A stretch of DNA of 64,000 nucleotides, taken from contig NZ_BOOO01000013.1 of assembly GCF_016863275.1 (NCBI RefSeq), forward strand, positions 248,001-312,000, read 5' to 3'. A program made the position numbers and the translations under genes. This stretch comes from Planotetraspora mira (GTDB lineage: Bacteria > Actinomycetota > Actinomycetes > Streptosporangiales > Streptosporangiaceae). Below are positions 1 to 60,136 of this stretch, in pieces. The notes under the pieces were generated by a model, which made no database searches, was not told where the DNA came from, and saw nothing but the letters and a program-made list of their open reading frames with translations. Position 1 is the first letter of the stretch. Each line of letters opens with the position of its first letter.

Positions 1-633
1 GGCGACGCCGTGACGGCGCTCACCGTCGCGGAGGCGACAGGTCGTCCCGCGTTCTGTCACGCCCCGCTCGTCCGGCCCGAGTTCCTGAAGCCGGATGCCG
101 ACACCGCGCGGGCCGGGGCGCGGGCGCGTGAGCGGCTCGGCATCCCGGACGGTGACCGGCCGGTGCTCGTCTCCGCCGGAGCCTGGGGTGTGGGGCGGGT
201 CGAGGAGACGGCCCGCGTCCTGGCGGCGTCCGGCCGCTATCTGCCCGTCGTCCTCTGCGGGCGAAGCGACCGTCTCCTCCGCCGGCTCCGGGACGCGGGA
301 ACCGGGCTGGCCCTCGGCTGGTGCGACGACATGCCCGACGTGTTCGCCGCGGCGTACGCGATGGTGGACAACGCGGCCGGCCTGACCTGCAGGGAGGCGT
401 TCGCCGCCGGGGTGCCGGTCGTCTCCTACCGGCCCATCGCGGGTCACGGGCGCGACGGCGCGCTCGCCATGGCGCGGTCGGGGCTGAGCGTCTACGCGCG
501 GAACGCGGCCGAGCTCATCGAGGCGCTCGACCGCCTCGACGGCACACCCGAGCGTGCCCGGATGATCGCCAGAGGGGCCGCGCTGTTCAGCGCTGCGTCC
601 GCCGAATCTCTTCTGGGTCGTCCACCCGGATGA
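1..633 (+). CDS. Glycosyltransferase, C-terminal part (5' end outside window)
   Basis: The reading frame is open from base 1, so the gene starts upstream of the window. The visible part looks like the nucleotide-sugar-binding half of a GT-B glycosyltransferase of the MurG/MGDG-synthase type. It has a LVSAGAWGVG strand-turn, then DNAAGLTCREAFAAG followed by PVVSYRPIAGHG, which resembles the donor-binding loop of diacylglycerol glucosyltransferases. It probably adds a sugar to a lipid or secreted acceptor at the membrane. Donor and acceptor cannot be read from the sequence. Its last 47 bp overlap the 3' end of the convergent transporter gene. The other glycan genes at 4.2-6.5 kb fit a polysaccharide or glycolipid locus. 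Confidence 0.75.
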   Translation, partial: GDAVTALTVAEATGRPAFCHAPLVRPEFLKPDADTARAGARARERLGIPDGDRPVLVSAGAWGVGRVEETARVLAASGRYLPVVLCGRSDRLLRRLRDAGTGLALGWCDDMPDVFAAAYAMVDNAAGLTCREAFAAGVPVVSYRPIAGHGRDGALAMARSGLSVYARNAAELIEALDRLDGTPERARMIARGAALFSAASAESLLGRPPG

Positions 634-1477
634 CGTCGTGGGCGAGGATGGCGGTCGAGCGTGAGAGCAGCACGCTGCCCAGGAGGATCACGCCGATTCC
701 CACGAGTTCCGGCACCACCCAGGGGCCCGTCCTGATGTCCTCGCCGAACAGGGCCACGCCGTAACCGGTGCTCGCCACCGGATCGGTCACGGTGAGAGCC
801 GGCTGGACGGCGACGAGCGACGAGCGCTGCAAGGCGTTCTGCAGGAGGAAAACGCTGCACAGGCCCGTGGCGATCATGGTGTAGAGGGACCACGTGGTCA
901 GCACGGCGGGCGGATTCCGCTCCAGCACATCGATGGTCCGCTTCATCAGCACCGCGGTGTAGGCGAAGCTGAGCCCGGCCGCGATCCCGAGTGCCACGCC
1001 GCGAAGCCGGCTGCCGGCGACCATCCCGACCGCGACCGCCAGCGTCACGAGCCCCGCCGTGACCGCCGCGGAGATCACCCAGCCCACGAGGCCGGGCAGC
1101 CGATCGGCGTTGGCTGGGGCGGCCGCGATGAGGAAGATGGCGAGGCCCACGGTCAGGGCGCCGACGGCCAGCCACGACTGCCGCCCGAGCCGGATCTTGA
1201 ACATCCACGCGGCGATGAGCATCGTGACGGGCAACTCCACGACGAGGAGGGGTTGCACGAGCGCGAGCCCGCCGAAGCCGAGCGCGGTCGCCTGGAAGAG
1301 GAAGCCGCCGATGAGGGCCAGGATGCCGAGGAGCCACGCCGGGCGCCGGATCAGATCCCACATCAACGCCAGGCGGAACGCCTCGCTCGCCGGGACGGAT
1401 CGGGCGGCCTTGCGCTGCAGCACGGAGGCGATGGCGTTGCACACCGCCGCCAGAAGTGCGAGAGGAACAGCGATCAT
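587..1477 (-). CDS. DMT-superfamily (EamA/NIPA-like) membrane transporter
   Basis: A 296-residue very hydrophobic protein with about nine or ten membrane segments and no large soluble domain, matching drug/metabolite transporters common in actinomycetes. The N-terminus (AVCNAIASVLQRKAAR) and the segment LALVQPLLVVELPVT are typical of EamA/NIPA-like proteins. The substrate is unknown. I place the start at the ATG at 1477, which begins directly with a membrane segment; the upstream in-frame extension is rich in Gly and charged residues and looks untranslated. The stop lies inside the convergent glycosyltransferase gene (47 bp tail-to-tail overlap). The promoter side faces the 53-bp repeat arrays. 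Confidence 0.7.
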   Translation of the reverse strand: MIAVPLALLAAVCNAIASVLQRKAARSVPASEAFRLALMWDLIRRPAWLLGILALIGGFLFQATALGFGGLALVQPLLVVELPVTMLIAAWMFKIRLGRQSWLAVGALTVGLAIFLIAAAPANADRLPGLVGWVISAAVTAGLVTLAVAVGMVAGSRLRGVALGIAAGLSFAYTAVLMKRTIDVLERNPPAVLTTWSLYTMIATGLCSVFLLQNALQRSSLVAVQPALTVTDPVASTGYGVALFGEDIRTGPWVVPELVGIGVILLGSVLLSRSTAILAHDVIRVDDPEEIRRTQR

Positions 1478-1594
1478 GACGTGGCCCCCGGATTCCGCGT
1501 CCGCTGAGGGAGCAATACCCCTCGAATGGTCCTCCCACGAGCAGATACCCCACGACCTGCCCAAACCCCCCAACCCACCCCAAAACCCCAGCCG

Positions 1595-1859
1595 TGATCA
1601 TGCGCAGGTTCGGCATCATGCCCCTCGACCAGCCCTGACGTCGGGCGTGATCATGCACAGGTTCGTGGATACGCGTGCTGACCAGCCCTGATGCCGGGCG
1701 TGATCATGCACGGATTCGTAAAGGTGCGGGCTGACCAGCGCGGACGGAGTTCGTGATCATGCACGGATTCGTGAAGATGCGCGCCGACCAGCATGGACGG
1801 TGTTCCCGATCATGCAATATCTCGGGCCGGACGTGCCGGTTGACGTGCGGGGTGGGCGA
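1595..1859 (+). repeat. Array of five 53-bp tandem repeats, forward orientation
   Basis: Units start at exactly 1595, 1648, 1701, 1754 and 1807. Each begins with TGATCATGCAC or a close variant, usually followed by a (G/A)TTCG block, and units 1-4 have GACCAGC at unit positions 33-39. Units 3 and 4 are the most alike; unit 5 has decayed after position 10. A C-rich tract (about 1556-1593) precedes the array. The period is not a multiple of three and the frames are not kept, so this is not a coding repeat. It is not CRISPR-like, because the whole unit is related rather than a fixed repeat with unrelated spacers. The core TGATCA is palindromic. Confidence 0.9.
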
Positions 1860-1860
1860 T

Positions 1861-2072
1861 CGAGGCGTGGAATGCGGCACGCCGGGATGGTGCCGCCCCC
1901 TCGTGCATGATCACGACGCTCGTTCGAGCAGGTGAGAGGGCGTGCCGCCGAATTCGTGCATGGTCACGATGTGCGTATGCGCAGGTGGGACGGTGTTTTC
2001 CCGAAAGTGTGCATGATCACGGCTGGGGTTTGGGCTGGTCGGGGGGCATGATCCCGAACCTGTGCATGATCA
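1861..2072 (-). repeat. Array of four 53-bp tandem repeats, reverse orientation
   Basis: On the minus strand, units start at 2072, 2019, 1966 and 1913, again exactly 53 bp apart. The unit at 2072 resembles the first unit of the forward array (same TGATCATGC, AGGTTCGG, ATCATGCCCC and GACCAGCC blocks). The two arrays therefore converge and meet at about 1860, forming one large imperfect inverted repeat of nine units between the transporter start and the ABC permease stop. Confidence 0.9.
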
Positions 2073-2136
2073 CGCCGGGGTGGATCACGCCGGGGGGTCA
2101 CGCCGGGGGTGGGTCACGCGGGGGGGTGAGGTGGGG
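2073..2136. repeat. G-rich flank with short TCACGC(C/G)GG repeats
   Basis: Between the reverse 53-bp array and the ABC permease stop, the + strand carries long G runs interleaved with GATCACGCCGGG, GTCACGCCGGG and GTCACGCGGGG. On the array's own strand it is a C-rich leader like the one before the forward array and before the 28.6 kb array. The G runs could form a quadruplex. No gene is visible. Confidence 0.6.
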
Positions 2137-2967
2137 TCAGCCGCGGGCTAGGCGGGGGAGTAGGGCCGAGGCGATGGCGATCATGACGATGGCCGACGCG
2201 AGCAGCACGCCGAAATCGAGCAGGAGCCGGGCGGAGGTGCCGACCAGCAGTCCCCGCAGGGCCTCGACCTCGTAGCTCAACGGGTTGATGTGGTTGACCA
2301 CCTGCAGCCAGCCCGGCATGAGCTGTACGGGATAGAGCGCGTTCGACGCGAAGAACAGCGGCATCGTGATGGCCTGCCCGATGCCCATGAGCCGGTCTCT
2401 GGACAACACCAGGCCGGCGATGGTGATCGACAGGCAGCAGAAGAACGCCGACCCCAGCAGCAGCGCGGCGACCAGAGCGATGATCTTGAGCGGGTTGGTC
2501 GCGAGATGCACGCCGAGGATCAGCGCGAGGACGAGCACGACGACGGCCTGGGCCACGGCGCGAACGCCGGCCGCGAACGCCTTGGCCCCGACCAGAGCGA
2601 TCCGCGGCGTCGGCGTCACCAGCAGCTTGGCGAGCACGCCCGCGTCGCGCTCCCAGATGATCTGGATGCCGTAGAAGATCGCGATGAACAGCGCGGACTG
2701 CGCGAGGATGCCGGGAGCCAGGAAGTCCAGGTATGGCGTCGAGCCGGTCGGGATCGCCCGGATCCGGGTGAACACCTGGCCGAACACGAGCAGCCACAGA
2801 GCGGGCTGGACGGCCCGGGTGACCAGTTCCGTCCGGTCGTGGCGGAGCTTCTGCAACTCGACCAGGCAGGTCGTGGCGATCCGCGAGGCGACGGTGCGGG
2901 CCAGGGCGAGTGGCCCGGGCTCGGTCTCAGCCGACGCGGCGGGCGGTGCGACGGGCAGCGCGGACAT
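2137..2967 (-). CDS. ABC-2 type transporter permease
   Basis: A 276-residue ABC-2 permease of the DrrB/daunorubicin-export type. A cytoplasmic N-terminus of about 45 residues is followed by around six membrane segments. Family features include LVTRAVQPALWLLVFGQVF in the first segment, PYLDFLAPGILAQSALF, and the conserved C-terminal LYPVQLMPGWLQVVNHINPLSYEVEALRGLL. It would form the membrane channel for the ATPase encoded just upstream. The two genes overlap by 41 bp, so translation is coupled. The MarR repressor gene is first in the operon, which suggests inducible efflux of a hydrophobic compound or antibiotic. The substrate is not known. Confidence 0.85.
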   Translation of the reverse strand: MSALPVAPPAASAETEPGPLALARTVASRIATTCLVELQKLRHDRTELVTRAVQPALWLLVFGQVFTRIRAIPTGSTPYLDFLAPGILAQSALFIAIFYGIQIIWERDAGVLAKLLVTPTPRIALVGAKAFAAGVRAVAQAVVVLVLALILGVHLATNPLKIIALVAALLLGSAFFCCLSITIAGLVLSRDRLMGIGQAITMPLFFASNALYPVQLMPGWLQVVNHINPLSYEVEALRGLLVGTSARLLLDFGVLLASAIVMIAIASALLPRLARG

Positions 2968-28469: not shown

Positions 28470-28595
28470 GCCAGACAGGTTTATGCACGCATATTGGCCC
28501 AACCTTGGCCAAAGCTACAAATTTCCTGATCCAAATCACTCTGGTCCATGTGAAACCCCGGACACCCCCCGCCCCACCCCCACCCCCCCTCCGCG
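28470..28595. other. Promoter side of serine hydrolase and C-rich leader
   Basis: About 125 bp. The first 75 bp are AT-richer and probably hold the hydrolase promoter on the minus strand. From about 28555 the + strand is a C-rich tract like that before the 1.6 kb repeat array. Confidence 0.4.
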
Positions 28596-28753
28596 TGATC
28601 ATGCACAAGTTCGGCGACACGCGTCCGACCTGGTCCTCAGCCACGCGTGATCATGCACGGATTCGGGCGCGCACCCTTTGACGTGCGCGAATCGCAAGCG
28701 TGATCATGCACGGTCAGGCGTGCCGAAAGGGCTCCGCACAGACGACAGAGGCT
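28596..28753 (+). repeat. Second array of three 52-53-bp repeats
   Basis: Units start at 28596, 28648 and 28701 with TGATCATGCAC each time. The first two continue with (A/G)(A/G)TTCGG, and the first and second have GACCTGG or GACGTGC near unit position 33, as in the arrays at 1.6-2.1 kb. A C-rich tract precedes the first unit, the same layout as at 1595. The third unit runs into the terminator region. The two loci are 27 kb apart and both are intergenic. Confidence 0.85.
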
Positions 28754-28782
28754 CCGTACAGACATCTGTACGGAGCCTCTGT
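28745..28782 (-). terminator. Strong terminator hairpin downstream of the amidase gene
   Basis: A perfect 18-bp inverted repeat, 28745-28762 and 28765-28782 (ACAGAGGCTCCGTACAGA and its complement), separated by only two bases. It lies beyond the amidase stop on the minus strand. A partial direct copy of one arm (GGCTCCGCACAGAC) lies just beside it at about 28730-28743. Confidence 0.85.
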
Positions 28783-28830: not shown

Positions 28831-31167
28831 CTACTTGACGTAGGCGATGCCGTCCGTGGCGACGGTGGGCCGCGTGGCGGTGCCCGCCACCACGATCTTG
28901 ATGGTGTGCTTGGCGCTCGTGGTCCAGGACTTCGTCCAGATGATGTTCCGGTAGCTCGTCCCGGAGGCCTTGGTGTCGACCGTGGCGGTCTTGACGCCGT
29001 CCACGTAGACGTCGAAGGCGCCGGTGTTCGTCGCGCGCTTGACGATCAGGCCGACCGAGCGGCCGGTGAAGGTGTAGGTGGCGCTGGCGGTCTTCGCGGT
29101 GCTGTAGAGGATGCTGCCGCCGAGATAGGACGTGGAGGTCGTCGTCTTCCACGTTCCGACGCGCTTGGCGTTGGACTCGTAGAGGAGGGCGGCGGACTGG
29201 GTCACCGACGAGGTCTTCGTGTTCCCCGCCGCGTCGGACGCGCTCACCGACCACACGTTCCAGGCCAGGTTCTTCGACGTCGATGCCCACGAGGTCGCGG
29301 TCGCCGCCAGCGTGACCTTGGACGGCGAGGCGATCTTCATGGACTGCACCGACACGTTGTCCGTGGCCTTCCAGCGCAGGCCGACGGGGATCGTGCCTGT
29401 CGCGCCGACCGTGCCGGAGCTGATGCCGAGAGACGCCTGCGTGCTGAAAGTCGGGGCCGTCTTGTCCGTCACCACCGTGTAGGTCGGCGACGTCGCTGTC
29501 GTCCCGTTGATGTTGACGGCGCGCAACTGCACCTTGTGGGAGCCGGTCGCGAGGGTGACGCCGGCCGAGGTCGCCAGGTTGTAGGGCGTGGAGACGATGT
29601 TTCCGTCCACGAGGACCTCATACTTCGACAGCGCGGCCTGCTTGGCGGCCCAGGTGAGCGAGATCGTCCCCTTGGTGTAGTAGGTCGATCCCACCTTCGT
29701 GGCGCCCGTGATGCCGCTGAGGGCGATCGACGTGACCGGGGTCGTCCAGGTCTTGGCCGTCGTCCTGATGCCGGGGAGCGCCGCGTAGAGCTTCGTGCCT
29801 GGGCACGCCGTGGCGTAGCCGTCCCGGTGACCGGAGATCGTGTTGAAGGTGTAGGTACCCGGCTTGTACTTCCCGTTGTCGGCGGTGATCGTCATTGGGG
29901 TCGTGCCGGTCGGGTTACCGCCGGCCAGGCCGAGCTTCCACGCGGCGACCTTGGCGATCGCATCGAGGGCGGCCTTCGTCGGGGCGGGGTCGCTCGCCTT
30001 GTCGAAGCTGCCCAGCAGGGCGATTCCGGTGCTGGAGGTGTTGAAGCCCAGCGTGTGTGCGCCGATCACGGGCCTGTCGACCCCGCCCGCGCGACCCTCG
30101 AAGATCGTGCCGCACTTGTCGACCAGGAAGTTGTAGCCGATGTCGTTCCACCCGTTCGTCTCGACGTGGTACAGCATGATCCCCCTGATGATCGAGGGGG
30201 ACTCGGAACAGCTGTAGGTGTTGACGCCGTCGGTGTGGTGGACGAAGACCGCCTTGACCGTGGGCGCGTACTCGGGCGGATCGGTGACGAGCTTCTCGTC
30301 GGCGCCCCACGACGCTCGGGTCTTGATGGTCGGGCGGGGCGCGGTGCTCGCCGGGGCGGCCGCGAGCGCCTTCGCCGTCGGAGCCTCCGTCGGAGTCGCC
30401 TTCGGGGTCGCCGTCGCCTTCGGGGTGGCGCTCGGGGTCGTCTTCGGGGTGGAGCTCGGCGACGGCGAAGCGGGGGGCGTGGGCGTCGGGGTCGAGACCG
30501 GCGTCGTGGCCGGCTCCACGGGCGCGACGTCCCCGGCCGAGGGGCTCGGCTCGGACGCGGGCTCGGACGGCGCGTCGGGTTCCGTGGTGCTGACGGCTCC
30601 CGCGAGCGTCACGTCGCCCAACTGCCCGCCCGCGGCCCGGACCCCGGTCTTCCGCTTGCCGTTCCCCGGGTCGACGAGTTCGACGCGGAGTCCGCGGGGC
30701 AGGGTGGCGCCCTTGCCCGTCACGCGGACCTCCACACCGTTGGAGGGCCCCACCCACAGGGGCGCGGTGGCGCCGCGAGTCTGTCGATCGGTCGTGCTGC
30801 CCACGTCGGGCAGATCGTCGCTCTCGGCCTCGACCGGACGCCACGACGACCAGGTCCCGGAGGCGGTGCCGCGGGTGCGCACCTCCACCGCGCCGTCGAT
30901 GGCCTCGCGGGCGTTGTCCCAGCTCACGCCCAGCAGGCTGAACGGCTTGGTGGTCGCGGCCGGCAGGCCCTTGACCACCTGCTTGCCTGATCCGCCCGAT
31001 TGGCCGGAGGGCACGTCGCGCAGCGCGAGCGTGTTCACCTGCCCCGGAGCGGGGGGCTGGGCAGCCGGCGCCGCGGTCGACGACGGCCCGCCGACCACCA
31101 CGAAGGCCACGGCCGCGGCCGCCACAGGTACGACCGTGCTCAGCGCGACGATCATGCGCCTCTTCAT
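28831..31167 (-). CDS. Secreted PGRP-type N-acetylmuramoyl-L-alanine amidase
   Basis: A 778-residue exported wall hydrolase that should cut the amide bond between muramic acid and the stem peptide. Residues 1-33 are a signal peptide. A beta domain (about 60-190) is followed by a long Pro/Thr/Ser/Ala linker (196-280). The zinc amidase/PGRP domain (about 282-470) starts RASWGADEKLV and has ligand candidates His310/311 (VFVHHTDG), His447 (SGHRDG) and Cys455 (ACPG). Behind it lie three Ig/bacterial beta domains (about 480-778). ATG 31167 is chosen with GGAGA upstream; a much longer in-frame extension to 31452 is not protein-like. Confidence 0.9.
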   Translation of the reverse strand: MKRRMIVALSTVVPVAAAAVAFVVVGGPSSTAAPAAQPPAPGQVNTLALRDVPSGQSGGSGKQVVKGLPAATTKPFSLLGVSWDNAREAIDGAVEVRTRGTASGTWSSWRPVEAESDDLPDVGSTTDRQTRGATAPLWVGPSNGVEVRVTGKGATLPRGLRVELVDPGNGKRKTGVRAAGGQLGDVTLAGAVSTTEPDAPSEPASEPSPSAGDVAPVEPATTPVSTPTPTPPASPSPSSTPKTTPSATPKATATPKATPTEAPTAKALAAAPASTAPRPTIKTRASWGADEKLVTDPPEYAPTVKAVFVHHTDGVNTYSCSESPSIIRGIMLYHVETNGWNDIGYNFLVDKCGTIFEGRAGGVDRPVIGAHTLGFNTSSTGIALLGSFDKASDPAPTKAALDAIAKVAAWKLGLAGGNPTGTTPMTITADNGKYKPGTYTFNTISGHRDGYATACPGTKLYAALPGIRTTAKTWTTPVTSIALSGITGATKVGSTYYTKGTISLTWAAKQAALSKYEVLVDGNIVSTPYNLATSAGVTLATGSHKVQLRAVNINGTTATSPTYTVVTDKTAPTFSTQASLGISSGTVGATGTIPVGLRWKATDNVSVQSMKIASPSKVTLAATATSWASTSKNLAWNVWSVSASDAAGNTKTSSVTQSAALLYESNAKRVGTWKTTTSTSYLGGSILYSTAKTASATYTFTGRSVGLIVKRATNTGAFDVYVDGVKTATVDTKASGTSYRNIIWTKSWTTSAKHTIKIVVAGTATRPTVATDGIAYVK

Positions 31168-60107: not shown

Positions 60108-60136
60108 AGAGGTCGCACGGCTTCGACCTTGGGTCC

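Follow-up and report, generated by a model that had tools for sequence, protein, structure and literature searches.

Converging arrays of a 53-bp unit near gene ends in Planotetraspora: a nearly frozen core and a possible directional role

The genome of Planotetraspora mira carries a large family of intergenic arrays built from a 53-bp unit, in which a short core hardly changes between sister species and the step between cores is retained, while the rest of the unit diverges faster than neutral DNA. The arms of these arrays converge, prefer gene 3′ ends and often start just past a stop codon. We take the frozen core and the retained step as signs of selection acting both on a recognition sequence and on the distance between its copies. 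The explanation that we favor, while holding it tentatively, is that the arrays are maintained in place, that their units are probably bound by a dedicated, putative protein, and that they act as directional punctuation at gene ends. The arrays may thus be landing strips for a DNA-binding protein and not idle repeats. Searches of the open-access literature returned no paper on Planotetraspora tandem repeats, on actinobacterial 53-bp interspersed repeats, or on Streptosporangiaceae intergenic repeats, and as far as that literature goes the family is undescribed.

The arrays in the window and across the genome

All window coordinates refer to the analyzed stretch of 64,000 nucleotides of the P. 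mira genome (9.03 Mb; labeled G000, with other genomes labeled likewise). A first-pass annotation had described nine units at 53-bp steps, five forward and four reverse, whose arms meet head-on at positions 1595 to 2072, and both the step and the geometry were borne out. Searching the window with the core 11-mer placed plus-strand cores at 1595 (one mismatch), 1648, 1701, 1754, and 1807 (two mismatches) and minus-strand cores at 2072, 2019, 1966 (one mismatch), and 1913, with all within-arm steps exactly 53 bp. At up to two mismatches, the 11-mer has 42 sites in the window, whereas 100 shuffles average 10.74 and never exceed 19. The annotation had also held that the first units of the two arms resemble each other most. 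This is true among left-right pairs, where L1-R1 ranks first (similarity of 0.83 versus 0.60 to 0.72 for the remaining eleven), but the pair L3-L4 within the left arm is more similar still (0.87).

Read from the left, the array begins with a flank (1551 to 1592, plus strand) that contains a coreless unit tail (CGACCTGCCCAAACC..., from 1553), the same tail being found in G104. The left arm follows (1593 to 1804, plus strand), with 53-bp units L1 to L4 and cores from 1593, 1646, 1699, and 1752 (CGTGATCATGC[A/G]C), and then a degenerate innermost left core (CCCGATCATGCAA; 1805 to 1817, plus strand). A centre without visible unit structure or strand (1818 to 1902) separates it from the innermost right core, R4 (CGTGATCATGCAC; 1903 to 1915, minus strand), and from the right arm (1916 to 2074, minus strand), whose units R3, R2, and R1 have cores from 1968, 2021, and 2074, read leftwards. 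Short repeats of 13 to 16 bp (TCACGCCGGGG on the plus strand; 2068 to 2127, minus strand) separate the outer right core from the stop codon of the permease gene; these repeats (GATCACGCCGGGG) are built around the start of the core as read in reverse. The ABC-2 type permease gene (2137 to 2967, minus strand) has its stop 62 bp outside the right arm, which runs in the sense direction of this gene. On the other side, the left arm faces the start of a gene for an EamA-like membrane protein (587 to 1444, minus strand; Pfam match under the curated cut-off), with the called start codon 148 bp outside the arm.

A second array in the window, absent from the first-pass annotation, is one-armed (28594 to 28711, plus strand) and has three cores from 28594, 28646, and 28699 (11-mer cores at 28596, 28648, and 28701, at steps of 52 and 53). 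A strong hairpin with a 17-bp stem (28745 to 28782, minus strand) lies between it and the gene end at 28831. Pfam places Beta-lactamase2 (PF13354, 27423 to 28469) and Amidase_2 (PF01510, 28831 to 31167) in the flanking genes.

The genome-wide search for 53-bp periodicity that the annotation had suggested was run and yielded 323 exact core pairs 51 to 55 bp apart, compared with 0 for the reversed control; among the matches listed, all but two of the exact pairs from the P. mira genome lie 53 bp apart. A sample of 846,220 bases from this genome contained 24 called arrays (162 cores); scaled up, the whole genome would have ∼256 arrays and ∼1,728 cores. The unit consensus, obtained from 206 cores in four stretches (151 of them with a following unit), is CGTGATCATGCAC-AGRTTCG-N13-YGACCTGC-N4-AC, that is, the core CGTGATCATGCAC followed by TTCG and YGACCTG as weaker blocks; the interiors vary yet contain these conserved blocks at 16 to 19 and 33 to 40. 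Cores for the consensus were preselected at ≤1 mismatch, which inflates core conservation there and leaves the between-species comparison described below unaffected. Conservation ends past the innermost core, so that an arm has the form core-(unit-core)n.

Arms with two, three, four, five, and six cores number 11, 44, 46, 25, and 4, respectively, and 54 of the 92 arrays in eight stretches are one-armed, the other 38 being two-armed (one two-armed pairing in G059 overlaps owing to misdetected cores). Forward units nearly always lie on the left and reverse units on the right: neighboring cores ≤300 bp apart at ≤1 mismatch in the eight stretches are ++ in 152 cases, -- in 151, +- in 44, and -+ in 2. 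At two mismatches the -+ class climbs to 18, chiefly through overlapping palindromic readings of a single core. The sole two -+ places at ≤1 mismatch, against the 44 converging ones, are G059C1 161824 and G022C2 346752 (joined-stretch positions). In 13 of the 38 two-armed arrays the innermost cores are only 31 to 32 bp apart, forming an inverted repeat in the cases listed. Of 338 exact GTGATCATGCRC sites, 8 lie >200 bp from any array; two lone cores fall within gene calls, at a similar position in two species (G000:C1:371405 and G125:C1:360314).

Spacing, divergence, and placement relative to genes

When same-strand successive cores less than 200 bp apart were tallied in four stretches without a preselected step, 151 of 163 spacings were 53 bp, the remaining 12 being 52 bp (two), 106 bp (two), and 21 to 35 bp (eight). 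Arm detection took steps of 51 to 55 bp, and in the G059 stretch 16 steps are 52 bp and 4 are 54 bp. Orthologous arms in P. mira and the sister species G022 have the same number of units in 12 of 13 cases, and the 2,222 bases of these 12 arms contain 1 length change and 180 substitutions, while array-free intergenic DNA, at 7.0 indels per kb, would predict ∼15 indels over the same length. The earlier idea of an array of protein-binding sites under selection for spacing is supported in part: what the 151 of 163 spacings and the length-stable orthologous arms support is selection on spacing. Helical phasing, with cores on the same side of the DNA as the annotation proposed, is conjectural: steps of 52 and 54 bp occur, and the A/T periodicity of 10.6 bp in the unit is nonsignificant (577 of 5,000 permutations were equally strong).

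Entire array regions, including centre and flanks, accumulate more indels than the control (9.1 versus 7.0 per kb between G000 and G022; 41.6 versus 20.5 per kb against G125), because whole units and centres change. Against the more distant G125, unit number agrees in only 5 of 14 arms, whole units having been gained or lost at a constant step. Slippage alone was rejected as the source of the arrays, given that the interiors have diverged and the step is retained. The first-pass annotation had named variable spacing and random intragenic copies as observations that would speak against its idea; regular spacing and intergenic position hold instead.

The contrast within the unit is seen most clearly between G000 and G022, for which 41 of 42 units from 10 sites were compared column by column (one misaligned unit was dropped, and innermost units were left out). 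Core columns 1 to 10 changed in 4 of 410 cells (1.0%) and variable columns in 172 of 1,189 (14.5%), with intermediate or higher values for TTCG (4.9%), GACCTG (7.7%), and the A/G column 11 of the core (24%); the reference rates are 6.7% for four-fold coding sites and 4.2% for other intergenic DNA. The core is thus slower and the interior faster than neutral; GACCTG changes at least as fast as four-fold sites, so that clear constraint is confined to the core. A conversion tract of ∼10 bp amid unrelated bases seems unlikely, which would leave selection on each core as the simplest reading. Substitution in the interiors, mostly by transitions both at and away from CpG, proceeds at about double the pace of four-fold sites. 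CpG methylation was rejected as the cause of the fast interiors, since transitions are elevated roughly threefold over intergenic DNA at CpG and non-CpG positions alike.

At each of the 12 G000 C1 sites (of 13) that could be resolved, one or more sister species also have an array between the same two genes, with differing unit numbers. Among G104, G022, and G125, compared at the locus of the window's array, it is missing from the first and kept with fewer units in the other two. Two further arrays of G000 C1 are affected in G104, that at 340178 being gone and that at 278947 reduced to one plus and one minus core, and the array at 60119 is missing from G125. Given that arrays are gained and lost, no single one is essential. 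Recent mobility would be expected to leave interiors common to several loci, as well as new sites; what we found is interior agreement at the level of composition (see below) and shared sites in the 12 of 13 cases.

To describe placement, we used codon-model gene calls made in this analysis for the eight stretches (2.45 Mb from six genomes). The midpoints of 129 of 130 half-arrays fall outside gene calls; 88 half-arrays adjoin a gene 3′ end, and 42 adjoin a start. Because five of the stretches (G000 C1, G125, G022, G104, and G077) are syntenic and therefore not independent, the main test was limited to the P. mira genome and G059. Here, 3′ ends hold 48 of 79 half-arrays versus 41% expected (p = 3e-4), and the preference is seen separately in P. 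mira (22/38, p = 0.016) and in G059 (26/41, p = 0.010). It is uneven, with 14/19 in G000 C1, 7/16 in G000 C4, and 1/3 in the window. Divergent gaps are avoided (3 of 53 arrays versus 115 of 373 gaps of ≥150 bp, p = 4e-6). Of the 48 half-arrays at 3′ ends in these two genomes, 40 begin between -40 and +30 bp from the stop codon, the corresponding figure for the start side being 4 of 31; the median 3′-end arm starts 14.5 bp past the stop. The TGA of the first core doubles as the called stop codon in 19 of 88 cases. Arms bordering a start codon (31 of the 79) retain nearly the same cores, although these are less perfect (0.61 versus 0.36 mismatches of 13, p = 0.007), which argues for a role in DNA. 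The linkers from stop to first core are C-rich (49% C, n = 62, often with runs like CCCCCCTTTTTTT), compared with 38% for the first 15 nt after array-free stops, and a C-rich linker is still present in G104 at a site that has no array.

A candidate mechanism and its alternatives

The favored reading has each 53-bp unit serve as a site for the putative protein, recognized through the core, with neighboring units occupied side by side, which would explain why the step is retained. Because an arm often starts just past the stop codon and points away from the gene, the punctuation would be directional: a bound array may slow or end the transcription that leaves the gene and so separate neighboring transcription units, and convergent gaps would contain two facing arms, one per gene. 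The asymmetric frozen core, the weaker blocks, the fixed step, the lack of covariation, and the retention of cores on the start side together point to recognition of double-stranded DNA; from this pattern we infer the protein, its binding, and its effect on transcription. A known counterpart is given by the TTF-I boxes after rRNA genes, which are polar arrays of terminator-protein sites, tandem and oriented, for one gene class. By analogy, the arrays described here are likewise tandem, oriented sites just past gene ends, but they occupy hundreds of loci and their protein is putative. A more ambitious form of the idea, which we consider rather unlikely as a whole, is that one dedicated protein acts at ∼1,700 sites in ∼250 converging arrays to provide directional stop or insulation, that protein and sites coevolve so that cores switch together and loci stay, and that this constitutes a chromosome-wide punctuation new to bacteria.

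The start of 3′-end arms so close behind the stop codon would also suit an RNA element of the 3′ untranslated region, in which the transcribed arm and a hairpin serve Rho- or hairpin-dependent termination or mRNA processing. The C-rich linkers agree with this, as do the closely set innermost cores, where a hairpin is possible, and the 76 nt past the 54 one-armed arrays, which at -20.4 kcal/mol show more structure than random intergenic DNA does (p = 2e-4; p = 0.055 against their own shuffles). The arms themselves, however, fold less stably than random intergenic DNA (mean of -14.2 versus -17.2 kcal/mol), and arms antisense to the bordering gene retain core and step. The units show no Watson-Crick covariation, only neighbor effects, and substitutions in mirrored units are not coupled beyond chance (11 shared positions with 10.0 expected, 11 pairs). 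Moreover, the C-rich linker survives the loss of the array in G104, and window positions 1400 to 2300 have no match in Rfam. We therefore regard the RNA element as unlikely. Compared with intrinsic terminators on hairpins alone, some array centres and some regions past one-armed arrays have a hairpin, and the arms have none. Two specific structures were rejected: a hairpin within each unit, between the seemingly complementary AGGTTCG and GACCTG, because there is no covariation, and a long hairpin between left and right arm, because there are no coupled substitutions and 54 of the 92 arrays have one arm only.

Very improbable, in our judgment, is a chain of 16-codon mini-genes, in which each unit reads ATG CAC ... 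TGA, the next ATG comes two bases on, and ribosomes restart along the array. The sequence TGATCATG does resemble a coupling junction, arrays sit after stop codons, and the frame is open in 342 of 375 units, but column-shuffled units have almost as many open frames (334.7 ± 5.5) and the third positions of the frame evolve no faster. Units of 51, 52, and 54 bp disrupt the frame, and the 31 half-arrays that adjoin a start codon are antisense to that gene. Translated mini-genes were rejected on the counts of open frames and the lack of a third-position excess. In this respect the same two observations set the arrays apart from MIRUs, which are actinobacterial intergenic tandem repeats, often of ∼53 bp, with small frames that overlap neighboring stop and start codons. 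Compared by description, both are intergenic tandem units of ∼53 bp, but a translated, coupled frame is not supported here, and we know of no MIRU arrays with two converging arms. The layout of the repeats, on which alone CRISPRs were compared, is similar in that a short conserved repeat alternates with variable stretches of a set length and in that conservation ends past the last core, whereas the present arrays have two head-on arms, conserved blocks inside the variable stretch, and ∼256 loci.

Doubtful, yet the strongest of the competing explanations, is a REP/BIME- or MIRU-like family without a cellular role, maintained and reshaped by some enzyme, through recombination of one arm with the other, or through biased repair; its position at gene ends would then reflect the harm done by insertions elsewhere. 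PMC3733652 describes REPs as for the most part following genes, in gaps between convergent or unidirectional neighbors, and as possible suppliers of stop codons; together with PMC2817692, it describes REP units as 20- to 40-bp palindromes, BIMEs as regularly spaced with alternating orientation, and the GTAG type as tied to RAYT transposases. On this description, our arrays resemble REPs and BIMEs in their many copies, their intergenic position 3′ of genes in convergent or unidirectional gaps, their species specificity, and their supply of stops (the TGA noted above). The variable unit numbers and the loss of arrays also fit a family of this kind, and the outermost units of opposite arms match in 0.487 of variable columns (38 pairs), with the mirrored mean attained in 0 of 2,000 permutations of unit order, as expected from copying between arms. 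Units from different arrays, on the other hand, agree in 0.377 of variable columns, where column composition alone predicts 0.382, and hence there is no sign of recent copying between loci; furthermore, a neutral repeat should not hold a frozen core beside fast interiors.

The units also differ from REPs and BIMEs: they are direct repeats of 53 bp, not palindromes, their core is asymmetric, their interiors are fast, and the arms that they form converge. No GTAG or CGTC tag occurs in the unit consensus of any lineage. The transposase domain PF01797 (Y1_Tnp) is absent from 6 of 10 array-bearing genomes (G000, that of the window, as well as G022, G104, G125, G059, and G186) and present in the other 4 (G077, G034, G084, and G119) and in 4 of 10 array-less genomes, and on this distribution RAYT-driven REPs were rejected. 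IMG/VR contigs have no match to the relaxed 53-bp pattern, nor do plasmids and phages have one to the window's array, and a phage, plasmid, or viral origin was rejected on these negatives. The arrays thus occupy the niche of REPs and BIMEs, the closest known kind by position, but are not members of that class by the palindrome, the tag, or the RAYT association.

Whichever reading holds, named, cultured actinomycetes offer countable, oriented arrays with a frozen core, a conserved step, and natural loss at single loci. Since the arrays can be counted and are naturally lost in sister species, pull-down and read-through comparisons should be simple. If the arrays end or insulate transcription, they would represent a protein-based separation of neighboring bacterial genes; otherwise, they are a repeat family in which something else preserves the core.

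Lineage-specific cores and the wider family

A scan of named genomes found at least 98 stretches with the array; among the 80 matches listed, 79 are from Planotetraspora and 1 is from Microbispora rosea. The strict core matches 9 of 297 genomes of the family. The relaxed core GTGATCNNGCA matches 7 of 90 genomes, with 730 pairs in G077, 477 in G022, 387 in G000, 373 in G059, 116 in G084, 28 in G034, and 2 in G051. At the level of the order, 5 of 101 genomes match, including G186 (110) and G119 (28), which are 2 of the 8 g65 genomes searched; a lone pair in a genome of another family (G297) is perhaps due to chance.

Related arrays with lineage-specific cores are thus present in other Streptosporangiaceae. 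The consensus core is CGTGATCATGCAG-AAGTTCG in G077 (20 units), ...TTCC in G059 (35 units), and CGTGATCTTGCAG at the g34/g51 loci (18 units), with a looser version of the latter in G186 (7 units). In G186 and at the g34/g51 loci the arms also converge (+- 10, -+ 0), and 3′ ends account for 20 of 28 half-arrays. Only 5 of the relaxed-core pairs in G077 have the ...CAC core, though the arrays lie at shared gene pairs, and we read this as a genome-wide switch of the core at loci shared with other species. Such a joint change between lineages would amount to a natural experiment on a factor and its many sites changing together. The sampled G077 cores have C12 replaced by G, and AAG ahead of TTCG, as at the locus of G000 C1 215395. 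In Microbispora rosea, a small two-unit array after a stop codon (L046:6168-6290) combines the variant core CGTGATCTTGCAG with the standard one.
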